Positions 22,431 through 30,542 of a stretch of 32,632 nucleotides of DNA are shown piece after piece. Under the pieces are notes generated by a model. The model was given only the letters and a program-made list of their open reading frames with translations, had not been told where the DNA came from and did no database searches. Every line of letters starts with the position of its first letter. Within the stretch, counting starts at the first letter, position 1. The translations under genes were made by a program, and so were the position numbers. The stretch spans positions 1 through 32,632 of the forward strand of contig QZJL01000011.1 of assembly GCA_003599745.1 (NCBI GenBank). The letters are read 5' to 3'. This DNA comes from Dehalococcoidia bacterium (GTDB lineage: Bacteria; Chloroflexota; Dehalococcoidia; Dehalococcoidales; SURF-40).

Positions 22431-23600
22431 TTAGTGTTTTTTAGTAGCAAGCCGCTTCAAGTAGTTTTTGCAGTTGCGCCTGGTCTCGGCGAGGTTGTCG
22501 CCGCCGAACTTTTCCAGTAGCGCCTGCGCCAGCACGAAGCAGGTCATCGCTTCGGAAACGACTCCGGCGCGGGGCACGATGCAAATGTCCGAGCGCTCGG
22601 TGATGGCCTCGGCGCTCTTGCCGGTGGCGAGGTCCACGGTGCGGGCGGGCTTGCCCAGCGTGGCGATGGGCTTGTGATAGACGCGCAGAACGATATCTTC
22701 GCCGTTTGAGATGCCCCCCTCGATGCCGCCCATGTGGTTTGTCCGGCGGCTAAAACCGGCCTTTCCGGGCGTGATGGCGTCCACGGTCTGCGAGCCGGTT
22801 AGCCCGGCCAGCGCACAGCCGTCGCCGATTTCGACCGCCTTCACCGAGGGAATGCTCGCGAGCGCCCCGGCCAGCGCGCCGTCAAGGCGGCGGTCGTAGT
22901 GCATGACGCTGCCCAGTCCCACCGGTACGCCGCGGGCGATGACTTCCAGCACGCCGCCCAGGGTATCCCCTTTACGGCGGGCTTCGTCAATTGCCGTCTT
23001 CATCTTTCGTGACACTTCAGGGTCGAGGCACCTTGTTTCGGGGTCGCGCTCGTATACCGCGGCCACCTCCTCAAAGCTGGGGCGGGTGTCTTCAAGCTTC
23101 ACTTTCCCGATTTGTACGGTGTGACTGGCGACCCGGATGCCGAACTCGCCGAGCAAGCGGCGGCAGACCGCCCCGGCCATCACCCGGGAAACGGTCTCTC
23201 GGGCGCTGGCGCGTTCCAGCACGTTGCGGATGTCGCCCTGGCCGTATTTCAAGGCGGCGGCGAGGTCGGCATGCCCCGGGCGGGGGCGGGTGAGCGGCTC
23301 GGCCTCGTCATCGCTTGCCTCAATCCTCATTACCGCCTGCCAGTTCTCGAAGTCGCGGTTTTGCACCACGAGGGCGATGGGACTGCCCAGCGTTCGGCCG
23401 TAGCGCGCTCCCGCCAGGATTTCACACTCGTCTTTTTCAAGCAAACCCCGCCCGCCGCGGCCGTAGTCACTGCGCCGCCGGGCGAGGTCGCGGTTGATGT
23501 CGCCGGCGCTTATGCCGAGGCCGGCCGGTATGCCTTCAATAATCACGACACAGGCCGGGCCGTGGGACTCACCGGCGGTCAGAAATCGTAACACCTTCAT
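22431..23600 (-). CDS. aroC: Chorismate synthase
   Basis: MKVLRFLTAGESHGPACVVIIEGIPAG...RPGHADLAAALKYGQGDIRNVLERASARETVSRV...GGIEGGISNGEDI. Confidence 0.98.
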   Translation of the reverse strand: MKVLRFLTAGESHGPACVVIIEGIPAGLGISAGDINRDLARRRSDYGRGGRGLLEKDECEILAGARYGRTLGSPIALVVQNRDFENWQAVMRIEASDDEAEPLTRPRPGHADLAAALKYGQGDIRNVLERASARETVSRVMAGAVCRRLLGEFGIRVASHTVQIGKVKLEDTRPSFEEVAAVYERDPETRCLDPEVSRKMKTAIDEARRKGDTLGGVLEVIARGVPVGLGSVMHYDRRLDGALAGALASIPSVKAVEIGDGCALAGLTGSQTVDAITPGKAGFSRRTNHMGGIEGGISNGEDIVLRVYHKPIATLGKPARTVDLATGKSAEAITERSDICIVPRAGVVSEAMTCFVLAQALLEKFGGDNLAETRRNCKNYLKRLATKKH

Positions 23601-24417
23601 CTCCTTTTAACGCCCGTGTCAGCGCCTGTCCCATCTGGACAAGCGGGGCGGTGTGGCCGGTGAAAAGCTCGAACTGGCGGGCGGCCTGGTAGAGGAACAT
23701 CTTGTGCCCGTAGACGACTTTACAGCCGGCTTTTTTGGCCTCAGCGAGCAGGCGGGTGGTGCGGGGGCGGTAGATGACATCGAAAACGACGAGTTTCGGG
23801 TGCAGGTAACTGGCGGGCACCGATAGTTCGTCAACTTTTGGCCACATGCCGACCGGCGTGGCGTTTGTCAGGATGTCGGCGTCGCCAATCTCCGAAAACC
23901 GGTCAAAACCGCCGGAACCTTCCGCCCCGATTCGTGCCGCTAAAGCCGCCGCTTTCGCCGGCGCGCGGCCCAGGATGACCACCCGGCTGCCCCGGTGCTT
24001 TAGAGCCAGAGCGATGGTGAGGGCGGTCGCCCCGGCGCCCAAAATTACCGTTTTTTTACCCCTTAAGGGCGTCTTTTCCGAGAGCGCCTTGAGCGCGGCG
24101 TCGTAGTCGGTGTTGTAGCCCTTCAGGTGGCCGCCACGGTTGACGATGGTGTTGATGGCGCCAATCTCCTTAGCTTCGGCGTCAAGTTCGTCAACGCAGG
24201 CCAGCGCCGTCGTCTTGTGGGGGATGGTAACGCTCATACCGGTGATGCCCAGCGTCCGCATGGCGGCGATAGCGGGCGCGGCCTCTTTTACCCGGAAGGC
24301 GAGATAAACGTAGTCCAGCCCCCGCGCCTGGTAACCCCGGTTATGCACCAGCGGGGAAAGCGAGTGCGCCACCGGGTCGCCGATGAGGCAGCAAACTCTG
24401 GTTTCGGCGTTAATCAC
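23569..24417 (-). CDS. aroE: Shikimate dehydrogenase
   Basis: CCLIGDPVAHSLSPLVHNRGYQARGLDYVYLAFRV...GMSVTIPHKTTALACVDELD...NTDYDAALKAL. GTG start at 24417 (AAAAAGGTGATTAACGCC) preferred over track start 24474. Confidence 0.96.
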   Translation of the reverse strand: MINAETRVCCLIGDPVAHSLSPLVHNRGYQARGLDYVYLAFRVKEAAPAIAAMRTLGITGMSVTIPHKTTALACVDELDAEAKEIGAINTIVNRGGHLKGYNTDYDAALKALSEKTPLRGKKTVILGAGATALTIALALKHRGSRVVILGRAPAKAAALAARIGAEGSGGFDRFSEIGDADILTNATPVGMWPKVDELSVPASYLHPKLVVFDVIYRPRTTRLLAEAKKAGCKVVYGHKMFLYQAARQFELFTGHTAPLVQMGQALTRALKGDEGVTISDRR

Positions 24418-24922
24418 CTTTTTCTCCCAGCCGCCTGATAATGGTCTCGGCCACCTGTTCGGGCGCAAGGCCATCGGTATCTACAATTATATCAGCCGCC
24501 CGCCGGTAAACCGGCTCGCGCTCTTTTAGCACAAGCGCCATATCTTCTGCCGGCGGCTTGCCGGTGAGGCTGGGGCGGGAGGCGTCGTTTTTTGTCCGCG
24601 CCAGCAGGGTTTCCAGCCTTGCCCGCAGCCAGACCAGCTTCCCGGTTTCCTTGAGCGCCCGGATATTTTCCTCACCGGTGACCGCGCCGCCGCCGGTGGC
24701 GTTGACAATGTCGTCGAGCGCGGCTACCGACCTGACTACTTCAGATTCAATTTTGCGAAAGCCCGGCCAGCCCTGGCGGGCGACGATTTCACTTACGCTC
24801 ATACCGGCTTTCCGGGTAATCATCTCGTCCATTTCGATAAAGCGCCTGCCCAGCTTTTTAGCCAGCAGCCGTCCCACCGCGGTCTTGCCGCTGCCCCGCA
24901 TCCCTATCAGCACGATGTTCAT
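24410..24922 (-). CDS. aroK: Shikimate kinase
   Basis: MNIVLIGMRGSGKTAVGRLLAKKLGRRFIEMDEMI...NATGGGAV. Confidence 0.97.
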   Translation of the reverse strand: MNIVLIGMRGSGKTAVGRLLAKKLGRRFIEMDEMITRKAGMSVSEIVARQGWPGFRKIESEVVRSVAALDDIVNATGGGAVTGEENIRALKETGKLVWLRARLETLLARTKNDASRPSLTGKPPAEDMALVLKEREPVYRRAADIIVDTDGLAPEQVAETIIRRLGEKGD

Positions 24923-24931
24923 GCCGGGGTC

Positions 24932-26218
24932 TCAGACTTCCTCGTATTTTGCGCCGACCTTTGCCAGGTCGCGGAAGAAGCCGGGATATGACTTGCCGAC
25001 GGCTTCAGCGCCGCTGATGACCGTTTCTCCCTCGGCAAAGAGCGCCGCTACGGCCAGGCTCATAACCAGGCGGTGGTCGTTGTGGGACTCGACCCCGGCG
25101 CCCCTGACCCCGCCGCCGGTAATCAGCATGGTGTTTTCGGTGACCTCAACCTCCGCTCCCATTTTGCGCAGTTCCAGGGCGGTGTGGTTGATGCGGTCGG
25201 TCTCTTTATAAATCAGGTGGCCGATGTTCCTGATAAGCGTTTTGCCGCTGGCAAAAGCGGCGACCACCGCCAGCGGCTGGACGATGTCCGGGTAGTCGCC
25301 CATGTCCTGGGTGGTAGCGGCCAAGGGGTTACGGCGGCTTGCCGAAATGCCTTCTTTGCCGAAGTCAATCTCGCAGCCCATTTGGGCGAGAATGTCAAGA
25401 AAGTGGCGGTCGCCCTGCACCGAACGGGAGTTAAGGCCGCTGACCGTCACCGTTACCCCGCCGATGGCGCCCATAGCGAAGAAATAGGCCGCCGACGAGT
25501 AGTCGCCCTCGATATCATACTCGCGCCCCCGGTAAGTCTCTCCGGCGGTGACCACGAAATGCTCGTAGTTGATGTTGCCGACCTCGCCGCCGAAGCGGCG
25601 CATAATATCAATGGTAACATCAACGTAGGGTTTGGAGAGCAGTTCGCCGCTGATGTTCAGGCGCACGTTGCGCCGGGCGTAGGGCGCGGCCATGAGCAGG
25701 CCGCTCACGTGCTGGGAGGTTATCAGGCCGCTCACCACCACCTCGCCGCCCAGCAGCGTCCCGCCGTGGATTTCGATGGGGGGGAAGCCGTCCCGGTTGA
25801 TGGAAGCCGCCCTGATGCCCAGCGCCTTGAGCGCCACCAGCAGGTCGCTCACCGGGCGCTGGTAGAGCCGGGGCTCGCCTTCGAAGACCACTCGTCCCGG
25901 TGTCAAGGCGGCCAGCGGGGCGACCATCCTTACCGTGCTGCCCGAGTTACCGACGAAAATTGTCTCTCTGCCCGGCTGGACGCTGAACTTGCCGTCCCGC
26001 CCCTCGATTTTCAGCGTGCTGCCGTTAGCCCGTATGGTGGTGCCCAGGGTGCGTAGGGCTTCGGCGGTGTAACGGGTGTCGTCGGCGTCGAGGTAGTTGG
26101 TGAGTACCGTCTCGCCCTCGGCCAGCGCGCCCAGGATGAGCGCGCGGTGGGTGTAGCTCTTCGAGGGCGGGGCGGTAACCTCGCCTTTCACCGCCCCGGG
26201 CGTTATCTTTACCTTCAA
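24932..26218 (-). CDS. aroA: 3-phosphoshikimate 1-carboxyvinyltransferase (EPSP synthase)
   Basis: VTAPPSKSYTHRALILGALAEGETVLTNYLDADDT...FVGNSGSTVRMVAPLAAL...ESHNDHRLVMSLAVAAL. Confidence 0.98.
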   Translation of the reverse strand: MKVKITPGAVKGEVTAPPSKSYTHRALILGALAEGETVLTNYLDADDTRYTAEALRTLGTTIRANGSTLKIEGRDGKFSVQPGRETIFVGNSGSTVRMVAPLAALTPGRVVFEGEPRLYQRPVSDLLVALKALGIRAASINRDGFPPIEIHGGTLLGGEVVVSGLITSQHVSGLLMAAPYARRNVRLNISGELLSKPYVDVTIDIMRRFGGEVGNINYEHFVVTAGETYRGREYDIEGDYSSAAYFFAMGAIGGVTVTVSGLNSRSVQGDRHFLDILAQMGCEIDFGKEGISASRRNPLAATTQDMGDYPDIVQPLAVVAAFASGKTLIRNIGHLIYKETDRINHTALELRKMGAEVEVTENTMLITGGGVRGAGVESHNDHRLVMSLAVAALFAEGETVISGAEAVGKSYPGFFRDLAKVGAKYEEV

Positions 26219-26219
26219 T

Positions 26220-26660
26220 TTACGCAGGTTCCCCCAGGTATCTTACCAGCGCCTCGAGGCCGAGACGGTAGCTTTCGGCCTTAAATCCCGAAACCTGTCC
26301 CACCGCCACCGGGGCGATGACCGAGTGGCGGCGAAAACCCTCCCTTGCCCCGATGTTGGAAAGGTGCACTTCCACCACCGGCTTGCCCGAGTCTGCTAGG
26401 GCGTCGCGCAGCGAGTAACTGTAATGCGTCAGCCCCCCGGGATTGATGAGTATGCCGGCTGCGGTGTGACCCGATTGCTGGATGAAGTCAATGATGGCGC
26501 CTTCGTGGTTAGACTGGAAAAAGACCAGTTCGCAGCCGAGCTTCCGGGCATCGTTTTTGAGGGTGTCCTCAATCTGCTTGAGAGTCGCCGTGCCGTAAAG
26601 GGCGGGTTCTCTCTCTCCCAGGCGGTTCAGGTTGGGGCCGCTTATGACCAGAATCTTCAT
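26220..26660 (-). CDS. aroQ: 3-dehydroquinate dehydratase, type II
   Basis: ILVISGPNLNRLGEREPALYGTATL...FFQSNHEGAIIDFIQQ...LINPGGLTHYSYSLRDAL...EVHLSNIGAREGFRRHSV. Confidence 0.98.
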   Translation of the reverse strand: MKILVISGPNLNRLGEREPALYGTATLKQIEDTLKNDARKLGCELVFFQSNHEGAIIDFIQQSGHTAAGILINPGGLTHYSYSLRDALADSGKPVVEVHLSNIGAREGFRRHSVIAPVAVGQVSGFKAESYRLGLEALVRYLGEPA

Positions 26661-27754
26661 CGGCAGACCTCCGCCAGTACCTGGCTTACCAGCGCTTGTG
26701 GTACTTTACAATTTACCACGCCGCGCCCAATTTCCGCCAGCAACACCCACCGGGGCTCGCCGCCGCTCGTTTTTTTGTCGAACTTGAGATTGGCGAGCAG
26801 CTCCCCGGGCGTTACCTGCGGGGCGTGGACGGGTAGTCCGAACTTTTTGAGAACTGCCTCTATCCTCGGTGTGGCGCTGGCCGAAAGCATGCCCAGCCGG
26901 GCGCTGATGCGACTGGCGACCACCATGCCGAAGCTGACCGCCGCCCCGTGCTGGCCTTCGAGGTTGCTGGCGGCTTCCAGCGCATGCCCGATGGTATGCC
27001 CGAAGTTGAGGATGGCCCGCGCCCCGGTGCGCTCGGTCTCGTCGGCCATCACCACCTTCGCTTTCAGGGCGGCGCAGCGCTCGATGATGGGTATCAGCTC
27101 CGCCGCTTTGAAATCGGCGTCTTTTTTATGCTCCAGACGCTCGAAGAGGTCTTTATCCATCGCCAGCCCGTATTTTAAAATTTCCGCCAGGCCGTTTCTC
27201 ATCTCCTGTGGCGGCAGCGACTTCAAAAAATCAACGTCGGCGATGATGGTCTTCGGCTGGTAGAAGCTGCCGACCATGTTCTTTTTACCTCCGAAGTTGA
27301 CGCCCACCTTGCCGCCGATGGCGCTGTCCACCTGGGCGAGCAGCGTGGTCGGTACCTGGATATAGTCAATGCCCCGCAGGTAGCTGGCCGCCAGATACCC
27401 ACCGGCGTCACCCGGCACGCCCCCGCCGAGGATGACCAAGAGAGCGCTGCGGTCAACCCCGTTTTCCATAAGAAATGTATAACCTTCGGCCAGGCTCTCC
27501 GGCGACTTGGCGATTTCGCCCACCGGAAGAGAAAATCTCAAGACTTTCTTGCCGCTCTGCGCGAGGATGGCGGCGACCGGTTCCCCGTAAAGGCGGTCGG
27601 TAGTCTCGTCGGTAACCAGCACCAGACTGGAGTAGGCTTTTAAGTCAACGAAATCGCCGATGCGGCCGGCAAGGCCGCGCCCGAGGTAGACCGACCACGC
27701 CCGCGTTACGGTTATCTTGAACGGTATTTCCAGGCGTTTTTCCGGCTGACTCAA
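26657..27754 (-). CDS. aroB: 3-dehydroquinate synthase
   Basis: LGGGVPGDAGGYLAASYLRGIDYIQVPTTLLAQVDSAIGGKVGVNFGGKKNMVGSFYQP. TTG start at 27754 with GGAGG upstream (GGAGGAAATAGCCTTGAGTCAG) preferred over track start 27829, which overlaps aroF. Confidence 0.96.
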   Translation of the reverse strand: MSQPEKRLEIPFKITVTRAWSVYLGRGLAGRIGDFVDLKAYSSLVLVTDETTDRLYGEPVAAILAQSGKKVLRFSLPVGEIAKSPESLAEGYTFLMENGVDRSALLVILGGGVPGDAGGYLAASYLRGIDYIQVPTTLLAQVDSAIGGKVGVNFGGKKNMVGSFYQPKTIIADVDFLKSLPPQEMRNGLAEILKYGLAMDKDLFERLEHKKDADFKAAELIPIIERCAALKAKVVMADETERTGARAILNFGHTIGHALEAASNLEGQHGAAVSFGMVVASRISARLGMLSASATPRIEAVLKKFGLPVHAPQVTPGELLANLKFDKKTSGGEPRWVLLAEIGRGVVNCKVPQALVSQVLAEVCR

Positions 27755-27773
27755 GGCTATTTCCTCCGGTTTT

Positions 27774-28841
27774 TTATTTGCCCGCCGGTTTTCGGTGGAT
27801 TTCTTTGTAAATGCGCCGGCAGGCGTCAATGATGTCTTTCAGTTCGTCGGGCGTCACCGACTGCGGCCCGTCCACCAATGCTTCCGCCGGGTTGTGGTGC
27901 GTCTCGATCATCAGGCCGCTGGCGCCGGCGGCGACGGCGGCGCAGCTCATGCTGAAGATGAGGTCGCGCCGCCCGGTGGCGTGGCTGGGGTCAACGATGA
28001 TGGGCAGGTAGGTCTCCTTCTCGATGGCCGGCACCGAGGCCAGGTCGAGGGTGTAGCGGGTGAAGCTCTTGCCCTTGCCGATGGGGATGATGCCACGCTC
28101 GCAGAGGATAATGTTGCGGTTGCCCTCGACGGCGATGTATTCGGCAAAAGAGAGGAACTCCTCGATGCCGGCGCCGAAGTGCCGCTTGAAGACCACCGGC
28201 TTGCCCGTCCGTCCGACCTTGCCCAGCAGGTCCTGGTCGTACATGTTGCGCGCGCCTATCTGGATGATGTCAACGTACTCGGCGATGAGGTCAATCTGGC
28301 TCTCGCCGCGCGCCTCGGTGATGACCGGCATCTCGTATTTATCGCCGGCCTCGCGCAGCCAGCTGAGCGCCTCCTGCGCTTCTTCCTGGCTGCCTGAGCC
28401 AAGCCCCTGGAAAGAGTAGGCGCTGGAGCGCGGCTTGAAGATGCCGCCCCGCAGAATCTGGGCGCCGGCTTTTTTAGCGCCTTCGGCGATTTTCAATAGT
28501 TGCCCTTTATTCTCCACGGCGCAGGGCCCGGCGATGAAGACCGGCTCGCCACCGCCGATTTTGACATCACGTACTTCGATGACGCCGTGTTTTGCCGGGT
28601 CTTCCGAAAGGCGGCTGAACTCCCGGCTGATGAGCTTGTAGGGCGTCTCAATGCGGAGAGTTTCTTTGACGCCGGGGAGCGCCTCGAAATGGCTGAAGTC
28701 TATTTTTCGCTCGTCGCCAACGACGCCGATGACGCTGCGGAAGTCGCCCCTTGAGAGGTCGGCTTTCAGCCGCAGGCGTTTTATCTCGTTGATGACGTTC
28801 TCGATTTGCTCTTTGGTTGCCTCGCTGCTCATGATAATCAC
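27774..28841 (-). CDS. aroF: 3-deoxy-7-phosphoheptulonate synthase (DAHP synthase, type I-beta with N-terminal ferredoxin-like domain)
   Basis: FIAGPCAVENKGQLLKIAEGAKKAGAQILRGGIFKPRSSAYSFQGLG...IIVDPSHATGRRDLI; GTG start with AGGAGG five nt upstream. Confidence 0.97.
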   Translation of the reverse strand: MIIMSSEATKEQIENVINEIKRLRLKADLSRGDFRSVIGVVGDERKIDFSHFEALPGVKETLRIETPYKLISREFSRLSEDPAKHGVIEVRDVKIGGGEPVFIAGPCAVENKGQLLKIAEGAKKAGAQILRGGIFKPRSSAYSFQGLGSGSQEEAQEALSWLREAGDKYEMPVITEARGESQIDLIAEYVDIIQIGARNMYDQDLLGKVGRTGKPVVFKRHFGAGIEEFLSFAEYIAVEGNRNIILCERGIIPIGKGKSFTRYTLDLASVPAIEKETYLPIIVDPSHATGRRDLIFSMSCAAVAAGASGLMIETHHNPAEALVDGPQSVTPDELKDIIDACRRIYKEIHRKPAGK

Positions 28842-28919: not shown

Positions 28920-29006
28920 CTATCGCGTTTCGGCCAAACTCCTCCCAGCGCATCCGGTGCGCCCGGTAAAGTAGTAGCCGTAATACCACTGGGAGGCCAA
29001 AAGCAT
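28920..29006 (-). CDS. aro operon leader peptide MLLASQWYYGYYFTGRTGCAGRSLAETR*
   Basis: 28 codons plus TAG; SD-like GAGG upstream of ATG; WYYGYYF cluster; located between a strong promoter and an attenuator hairpin upstream of aroF. Confidence 0.9.
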   Translation of the reverse strand: MLLASQWYYGYYFTGRTGCAGRSLAETR

Positions 29007-29075: not shown

Positions 29076-30542
29076 TCAAGGAGCTATACTATTCTTAACC
29101 GCATTGTAAACTGGTTGAGGAGGATGCGTTGTAAACCGAGTAGGAAAATAAACGATGGATTCGGCTTTTGTTGGTTTCTTTCGTAAGCCAAATAGTCCTT
29201 CTAGGTTAGGAGTTTGAAGAAAAACGTTCTCAGCTCCCAGAAGCGTTTTCAAACTGGCTATTGCGGTCGCAGTGGCAGGATTTTCTGGGTCTTCATCTAT
29301 CAGCGCATACGTTGGTATGTGAAATAACCCCAACACTTTTGCTATTGGTTCGATGTTGGGCAAGCCCCCACAATCGATGATAGAAACGCAATGTTTATCT
29401 AAGTCTAGCCCCAAACTGGTGAGAGCGGATACGCAGGCGACCTTGTCTGGGTACCCTTCTGTGAGCACGACGTGATTAGCGAAGAAGACTTCGTTAATCT
29501 CCTCATCAAATTTGGAAGCAGCTGAAACTTGGCTCTGAAGGGTTGCGTACTGCCCGAAACCTGAACAAACGGTTGTGTCCCCGGTTTCCCTTTTTACAAG
29601 GCGAACACTGTTAAAGTCAGATATATCGACGAAGCATCTGTCGTGCGTGGTGTAAATTATCTGAACATTGTTTTGGGATAGGTGTTTTAGAATTTTGTGA
29701 AAATTGCGGCAACCATGCGGATGAAGATAAAGCTCTGGCTCTTCGATAGCCAAAACAAGCGGTTTAGCAACGATTTGACCGTACGCTCTAGCTATAGCAA
29801 CTGCTAAAGCACTTTGAGTGCCAGCACCCATATGCTCTGCATCAAACTCTAAAGATGCAGAAGAGTCACTCAAAAAAGGTCTGAGATTCTTGATGGTATC
29901 GATAGGGTCAACGAGTTGCATCTTGAGGTGTAGTTCAAGGCCAGTCTGCTCTTTAACACAATCTCTCAATATGGTCTCTAAAGTCTGGATATCTGCGGCA
30001 ACATTTGAATCATATGCACTCTTTATACCTTGTATGAAAGCAGTTTTCTTAGCTGGGTCAATACTCTTCTCAATATATCTGAGCAATTTGCCATACAACG
30101 TCCATTGGCTAGGGCGGACTTGTTCAGATGCTTCCCTGTCCAATCCCAGGTACATCAAGGTTACTTCATCTTTCATGTCTGTCGAAACACGGATTTCTTT
30201 TTGGCTAGGGTAAGTCAATACTCTTCCAAGTCGGTCCACAGCGAAATAGCCAAAATCACTACCGTCATAGGTCATTTGAAAACCCCATACATTGGGGTTG
30301 GTAGCCAATTGCGAATCAAACATTATTTGGAGGAAAATCGGAGAAGTTTTGTCATATTTATAAAAGTCATGGTCACTAAACGAGCGCGCAGAAGGATAAG
30401 ATAACCCCAATAGAAGGTCAAGCGCTTTCATCAGGTTAGATTTTCCGGCGTTATTGGGCCCAATGAGACTTGTGATAGCGCCGAAGTCAAGATTGACTTC
30501 TTCAATGGAACGGAAGTGTTTTACAGTGAGTTTTTTTATCAT
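29076..30542 (-). CDS. OLD-family ATP-dependent endonuclease (AAA ATPase plus TOPRIM)
   Basis: MIKKLTVKHFRSIEEVNLDFGAITSLIGPNNAGKSNLMKAL Walker A; LVLAIEEPELYLHP Walker B; TOPRIM-like VVLTEGYPDKVACVSAL...YALIDEDPEN. Visibly lower GC than neighbours. Confidence 0.9.
   Translation of the reverse strand: MIKKLTVKHFRSIEEVNLDFGAITSLIGPNNAGKSNLMKALDLLLGLSYPSARSFSDHDFYKYDKTSPIFLQIMFDSQLATNPNVWGFQMTYDGSDFGYFAVDRLGRVLTYPSQKEIRVSTDMKDEVTLMYLGLDREASEQVRPSQWTLYGKLLRYIEKSIDPAKKTAFIQGIKSAYDSNVAADIQTLETILRDCVKEQTGLELHLKMQLVDPIDTIKNLRPFLSDSSASLEFDAEHMGAGTQSALAVAIARAYGQIVAKPLVLAIEEPELYLHPHGCRNFHKILKHLSQNNVQIIYTTHDRCFVDISDFNSVRLVKRETGDTTVCSGFGQYATLQSQVSAASKFDEEINEVFFANHVVLTEGYPDKVACVSALTSLGLDLDKHCVSIIDCGGLPNIEPIAKVLGLFHIPTYALIDEDPENPATATAIASLKTLLGAENVFLQTPNLEGLFGLRKKPTKAESIVYFPTRFTTHPPQPVYNAVKNSIAP

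Follow-up and report, generated by a model that had tools for sequence, protein, structure and literature searches.

The seven-gene shikimate operon in the window, which is the whole 32,632-nucleotide stretch of DNA analysed here, is very probably controlled as a unit by ribosome-mediated transcription attenuation (probability of roughly 0.9), in which a short leader peptide rich in aromatic residues would serve as the sensor. This reading is based on the conservation of the leader in all 84 upstream regions collected from relatives, the intrinsic terminator that follows it, and an antiterminator that covaries and keeps its spacing to the aromatic codons; the same evidence strongly supports the first-pass annotation, which had proposed this mechanism for the operon. 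From it we infer that the leader is translated, that the ribosome stalls on uncharged tRNA, and in which direction and how strongly the operon responds. The operon genes lie head to tail in the order aroF-B-Q-A-K-E-C, leading from DAHP synthesis through to chorismate (Table 1), and the true start of aroB is probably located further inside the ORF as listed.

Table 1. Coordinates of the leader, its RNA elements, and the shikimate operon in the window.
Feature	Position	Strand	Remarks
Sigma-70-type promoter (predicted)	29051-29023	minus	TTGACA (29051-29046), 17-nt spacer, TATTAT (29028-29023); 11/12 matches
GAGG, resembling a weak Shine-Dalgarno sequence for the leader ORF	29016-29013	minus	coincides with or lies close to the predicted transcript start; from sequence
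Leader peptide ORF	29006-28920	minus	28 codons, ATG 29006-29004, TAG 28922-28920; encodes MLLASQWYYGYYFTGRTGCAGRSLAETR*
Region 1a, CCUCCCAG	28996-28989	minus	just 5' of the cluster (before the Trp codon); complementary to CUGGGAGG of region 2
Regulatory codon cluster W-Y-Y-G-Y-Y-F (putative)	28988-28968	minus	read from the sequence
Hairpin P (GGCGCA / UGCGCU)	28963-28947	minus	begins 4 nt past the last aromatic codon; 3' arm overlaps region 2
Region 2, antiterminator 5' arm, GCGCUGGGAGG	28951-28941	minus	
Region 3, antiterminator 3' arm, CCUCCCGGCGC	28882-28872	minus	also terminator 5' arm and loop
Intrinsic terminator (3:4)	28885-28853	minus	stem-loop 28885-28864, eight pairs, then T6; U tract to 28853
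aroF, DAHP synthase	28841-27774	minus	NF006421, 1.9e-131; GTG start at 28841; Shine-Dalgarno AGGAGG 28852-28847
aroB, 3-dehydroquinate synthase	26657..27829	minus	TIGR01357; coordinates of the ORF as listed
aroQ, type II 3-dehydroquinate dehydratase	26220..26660	minus	
aroA, EPSP synthase	24932..26218	minus	
aroK/aroL, shikimate kinase	24410..24922	minus	
aroE, shikimate dehydrogenase	23569..24474	minus	
aroC, chorismate synthase	22431..23600	minus	

The leader ORF starts 16 nt past the promoter and ends 34 nt before the terminator, and the leader contains one Trp, four Tyr, and one Phe residue. Its sequence, reading frame, and coordinates had been given exactly by the first-pass annotation, and the reported presence of six Trp, Tyr, or Phe codons among seven consecutive codons was verified. 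This is the single site in all six frames of the window with at least six aromatic codons out of seven, and dinucleotide shuffles contain 0.025 such sites on average.

Relatives were gathered from GTDB genomes with the AroF protein as the query and an orthologue cut-off of at least 55% identity. The GTDB family of the window holds only its own genome, and the relatives were therefore drawn at the rank of order, which gave 84 distinct aroF upstream sequences from two neighbouring families as well as Dehalococcoidales itself. All 84 contain, at the equivalent position, a short ORF that starts with ATG and carries an aromatic cluster, for example MINASQKYYWYYYYFTGHEGALGGH, MLNVKSFKNYYYFTKTSLLGR, and MVAQSFYAYYYFTWCLQGTSGRYGVIA; thus neither the ORF nor the cluster has been lost from any orthologous leader, the comparison by which the first-pass annotation had proposed to refute itself. 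The leader is also found in single-contig genomes from the order of the window, and in both of the families of the same class that lie outside the order (G109/G221 and G169). The best eight-codon stretch holds five to eight aromatic residues in 81 of the 84 leaders, whereas at least five are reached in only 8 of 840 shuffled regions. Variation between the leaders at the first and second codon positions is 0.28 and 0.53 inside the aromatic run, compared to 0.67 and 0.70 before it, and both synonymous codons are used within the runs (Tyr: TAT 173, TAC 132; Phe: TTT 125, TTC 36). The constraint on the run codons, together with the freedom of synonymous change, shows that selection acts on the encoded amino acids.

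Promoters scoring at least 10 of 12 are located directly before 77% of the 84 leaders, compared to 1.4% of shuffles. In the window, the region directly upstream of this promoter is occupied by a gene for an OLD-like AAA ATPase with a TOPRIM domain (29076-30542, minus strand; Pfam AAA_15 and OLD-like_TOPRIM), which has weak similarity to phage-defence effectors. A Shine-Dalgarno-like element precedes the leader ATG in only 13% of the 84 leaders, as against 98% of the aroF starts. The efficiency of initiation is therefore uncertain for the 87% of leaders that have no such element, which counts against attenuation. In about a quarter of the promoter-positive loci, the distance from the end of the -10 box to the leader ATG is no more than 10 nt (5-10 nt in some), so that these leader transcripts would be nearly leaderless. 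There is a precedent in the ilvBNC operon of Corynebacterium glutamicum, which is reported to have a leader peptide produced without a ribosome binding site (reference 42 in PMC4046766). Judged from their sequences, the leaders described here would add an example of leader peptides translated with little or no Shine-Dalgarno signal.

The terminator is positioned between the leader ORF and aroF, directly before the latter, and terminators were detected at 81 of the 84 loci by script and at the remaining three by eye. In the window, regions 2 and 3 can pair over 11 bp to form an antiterminator that is mutually exclusive with the terminator. The pairing is kept despite changes in sequence, as in GCUUGGGAGG:CCUCCCAAGC, GCUUGAGAGG:CCUCUCAAGC, GCCUGGGGGG:CCUCCCAGGC, GCUCGGGGGG:CCUCCCGAGC, and GCUGGGGAGG:CCUCCCCAGC. 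The search for the longest helix is biased upward, and for this reason shuffled and swapped controls were included: the mean helix length is 8.2 bp, compared to 5.4 bp when region 2 is shuffled and 7.0 bp when region 3 is swapped between species. In an alignment of 80 rows, 87.6% of the antiterminator cells are paired and 66 cells show a double change, whereas 500 row shuffles reach at most 83.3% and 41, respectively. The pairs at variable positions switch among TA, CG, and GC, and the compensatory covariation of the antiterminator is strong. The count of covarying cells for the terminator helix 3:4 was not above that of shuffles on the joint alignment; this is due to the 3' arm being aligned out of register, and detection in each sequence was used instead.

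Two other helices could compete for region 2. Region 1a pairs with region 2 over 10 bp in the leader of the window, and this pairing shows a modest to weak enrichment across the family. Across the family, hairpin P starts at a median of 4 nt after the run and has a median overlap of 3 nt with region 2, and its mean energy is -7.2 kcal/mol, compared to -4.6 kcal/mol in shuffles; it reaches at least 5 bp in 73 of the 84 leaders, but also in 70% of shuffles. The lower family-wide support for these upstream helices counts against attenuation.

The spacing of these elements fits ribosome-mediated control. Region 2 starts at a median of 18 nt (interquartile range 16-19) after the last aromatic codon in the family and ends at a median of 11 nt before the leader stop codon, so that a ribosome stalled in the cluster would leave region 2 free, and a ribosome at the stop codon would usually cover it. 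A masking model, which is restricted to equilibrium folding and assumes a ribosome footprint, gives the antiterminator a mean probability of 0.67-0.81 with a stalled ribosome, compared to 0.21 with a ribosome at the stop codon, for transcripts ending at region 3. For the full-length leader of the window, a ribosome modelled at the first or middle aromatic codon results in antiterminator probabilities of 0.99-1.0 and a terminator probability of 0.0, and the model without a ribosome gives 0.90 for the terminator. Two outcomes for the window fit the scheme less well. The terminator is still favoured when the stall is placed at the final Phe codon. With the ribosome at the stop codon, region 2 is not predicted to be blocked, and the terminator probability is 0.71; this less clear-cut outcome can be explained by the rather large distance between the stop codon and region 2 in the window.

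Under attenuation, RNA polymerase would initiate a short distance before the leader ORF, with a ribosome following behind it. When charged tRNA-Tyr (or that for Phe or Trp) is in short supply, the ribosome would stall within the aromatic cluster, where it would occupy the nucleotides preceding region 2, among them the 5' arm of hairpin P, and leave region 2 itself free about 16-19 nt downstream of the cluster. Regions 2 and 3 could then pair, the terminator could not form, and the operon would be transcribed. When all the aromatic amino acids are plentiful, the ribosome would reach the stop codon just past region 2 and either mask or clear this region, in which case region 3 would pair with region 4 and transcription would halt before aroF.

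Several other readings of the leader have to be weighed against this scheme. Control could be exerted at translation, with the leader RNA or reinitiating ribosomes setting access to the ribosome-binding site of aroF, as might be thought from the window itself, in which the U tract abuts the AGGAGG element and the minimum-energy fold pairs an upstream CCUCC with it. However, in many relatives 40-100 nt or more separate the terminator from aroF, both the terminator and the antiterminator are retained across the family, and a hairpin followed by a U tract indicates transcription termination, which makes translational control improbable. Even less credit is given to a metabolite- or tRNA-binding riboswitch, for instance a T-box, or to a protein-bound leader, in which the short ORF would be a by-product. 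Riboswitches may likewise end in a terminator, but no Rfam match, T-box included, was obtained in the window and five relatives, and the T-box or riboswitch reading was rejected on this basis. The Rfam scan of the window gave only tRNAs at the gathering threshold, and comparison of six loci with the Rfam 15 amino acid leaders, including Trp_leader (RF00513), gave no leader family at E<=1. Besides the short helices, moreover, the conserved feature is a coding sequence, since the amino acids of the run are kept while synonymous change is free. Short ORFs are common, and the aromatic run could in principle have arisen by chance within non-coding spacer DNA, although no result favours this; its presence at 84 of 84 loci, the expectation of 0.025 for the window, and the rarity of five aromatics in eight codons among shuffled regions (8/840) refute this explanation, whose probability is practically negligible.

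Within the attenuation reading, the identity of the sensed amino acids is a separate question. The first-pass annotation had regarded the peptide as integrating all three aromatic amino acids. The codons of the window's leader bear this out, but it does not hold as a constant of the family: the core run contains Tyr in 82 of the 84 leaders and Phe in 81, whereas Trp is found there in 34 only, and the mean numbers of residues per leader are 4.0, 2.5, and 1.0 for Tyr, Phe, and Trp, respectively (n=84). Some other Trp codons fall within the RNA-constrained sequence of the antiterminator. There is about an even chance that the ribosome mainly senses Tyr (and Phe), with the Trp codon being incidental and no three-way integration taking place. 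The scarcity of Trp in the core runs is in line with this, as is the aroF attenuator of C. glutamicum, which carries Phe-Tyr-Phe and is reported to act on Phe limitation only and not on Tyr (PMC11802643). On the other hand, Trp is the first residue of the cluster in the window, where the first cluster codons give the strongest antitermination in the folding model, and W is found again in the runs of several clades (YYWYY, WYYY, and FYWYF). Going by codon content, the family taken together looks like a sensor of Tyr and Phe in which Trp is optional, and three-way integration of Tyr, Phe, and Trp by the leader of the window is possible.

Six genomes carry two copies of aroF (L066/L067, L056/L073, L064/L081, L082/L075, L059/L062, and L069/L072). 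Five of these pairs combine a leader richer in Tyr (3-5 Tyr) with one dominated by Phe (1-2 Tyr, 4-5 Phe); in the sixth, L059/L062, the leaders differ little. This composition suggests that the leaders of duplicated aroF genes may be isozyme-specific attenuators. The more far-reaching proposal, that one leader peptide works as an OR gate through which all three aromatic amino acids act on the common shikimate operon of Dehalococcoidia and that the leaders of duplicated aroF genes have diverged into Tyr-sensing and Phe-sensing attenuators, is put forward tentatively and is somewhat more doubtful than its converse. If true, such pairs would represent an RNA-only counterpart of the Tyr- and Phe-specific DAHP-synthase isozymes of enterobacteria, which are controlled by repressors.

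The device is not used on every aromatic gene, since neither the second DAHP synthase of the window's genome (L002, about 45% identity) nor its trpE (L150) has an aromatic leader. A search of this genome (G000), a 78%-complete MAG, gave no prephenate dehydratase (PF00800). Such a leader is mostly absent from the phylum's other DAHP synthases (44-50% identity). About ten distant Chloroflexota DAHP synthases (L151, L165, L168, L171, L172, L179, L190, L192, L195, and L199) were seen by eye to be preceded by a short leader rich in aromatic residues and then a terminator, the RNA pairing around the leader stop codon being laid out differently. Inspection by eye also gave CAYYFYRFFWYY as the leader of L151 and YYYLFTKPEGPA as that of L165/L168, in which the bases directly preceding the terminator are complementary to the stretch that surrounds the leader stop. 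Counterparts of the leader family in other Chloroflexota classes are probable.

In Escherichia coli, the trp, pheA, and pheST leaders each sense one amino acid and belong to a terminal branch or a synthetase, and the common aromatic pathway is mainly under repression by TyrR and TrpR. These leaders and that of Chloroflexota have in common a peptide rich in end products, alternative 2:3 and 3:4 helices, and an intrinsic terminator, and a candidate for the 1:2 helix is present in the window. The enterobacterial ilvGMEDA (Ile/Val/Leu) and thr (Thr/Ile) operons each have a single leader whose codons stand for more than one product of a shared pathway. A multi-amino-acid leader is also described for ilvB of Corynebacterium (PMC11109978). 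The Chloroflexota leader resembles these three in carrying codons for several products, but they serve the branched-chain and threonine pathways rather than the aromatic one.

Leader attenuators on DAHP-synthase genes are already known or proposed elsewhere, so the kind is a known one, although the first-pass annotation was aware of no described example. In C. glutamicum, the leader peptide encoded by aroR before aroF is a published ribosome-mediated attenuator with Phe-Tyr-Phe that is reported to respond to Phe and not to Tyr (Neshat et al. 2014, via PMC11802643; PMC4046766). Both it and the Chloroflexota leader are aromatic leader peptides before the gene for the first step of the pathway, a likeness of position and principle. 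The aroR leader belongs to another phylum and has three aromatic codons, whereas the Chloroflexota leaders typically have five to eight, are dominated by Tyr, precede a seven-gene operon, and are conserved across an order. In Acholeplasma, the uORFC-13-1 motif is a predicted upstream ORF directly before aroF with a terminator, for which Phe codons were proposed as the signal (PMC8632094); unlike the Chloroflexota leaders, its 24 representatives have at least one Phe codon, with no Tyr/Trp cluster described in that paper. Attenuation of aroF-tyrA in E. coli has been raised as a hypothesis only (cited in PMC8632094 and PMC2659441). No amino acid attenuator of this kind is described for Dehalococcoides or Chloroflexota in the open-access literature searched. 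What appears to be new is the Chloroflexota family itself, together with its multi-aromatic code and its leaders, most of which have no Shine-Dalgarno element.

Collectively, the leaders constitute a deeply conserved and covarying family of at least 84 members that is not covered by Rfam. Duplicated aroF genes, with one Tyr-rich and one Phe-rich leader, provide natural pairs in which codon-based specificity could be studied, and the family as a whole raises a testable question about how one leader would weigh three amino acids to set the flux through the common aromatic pathway.
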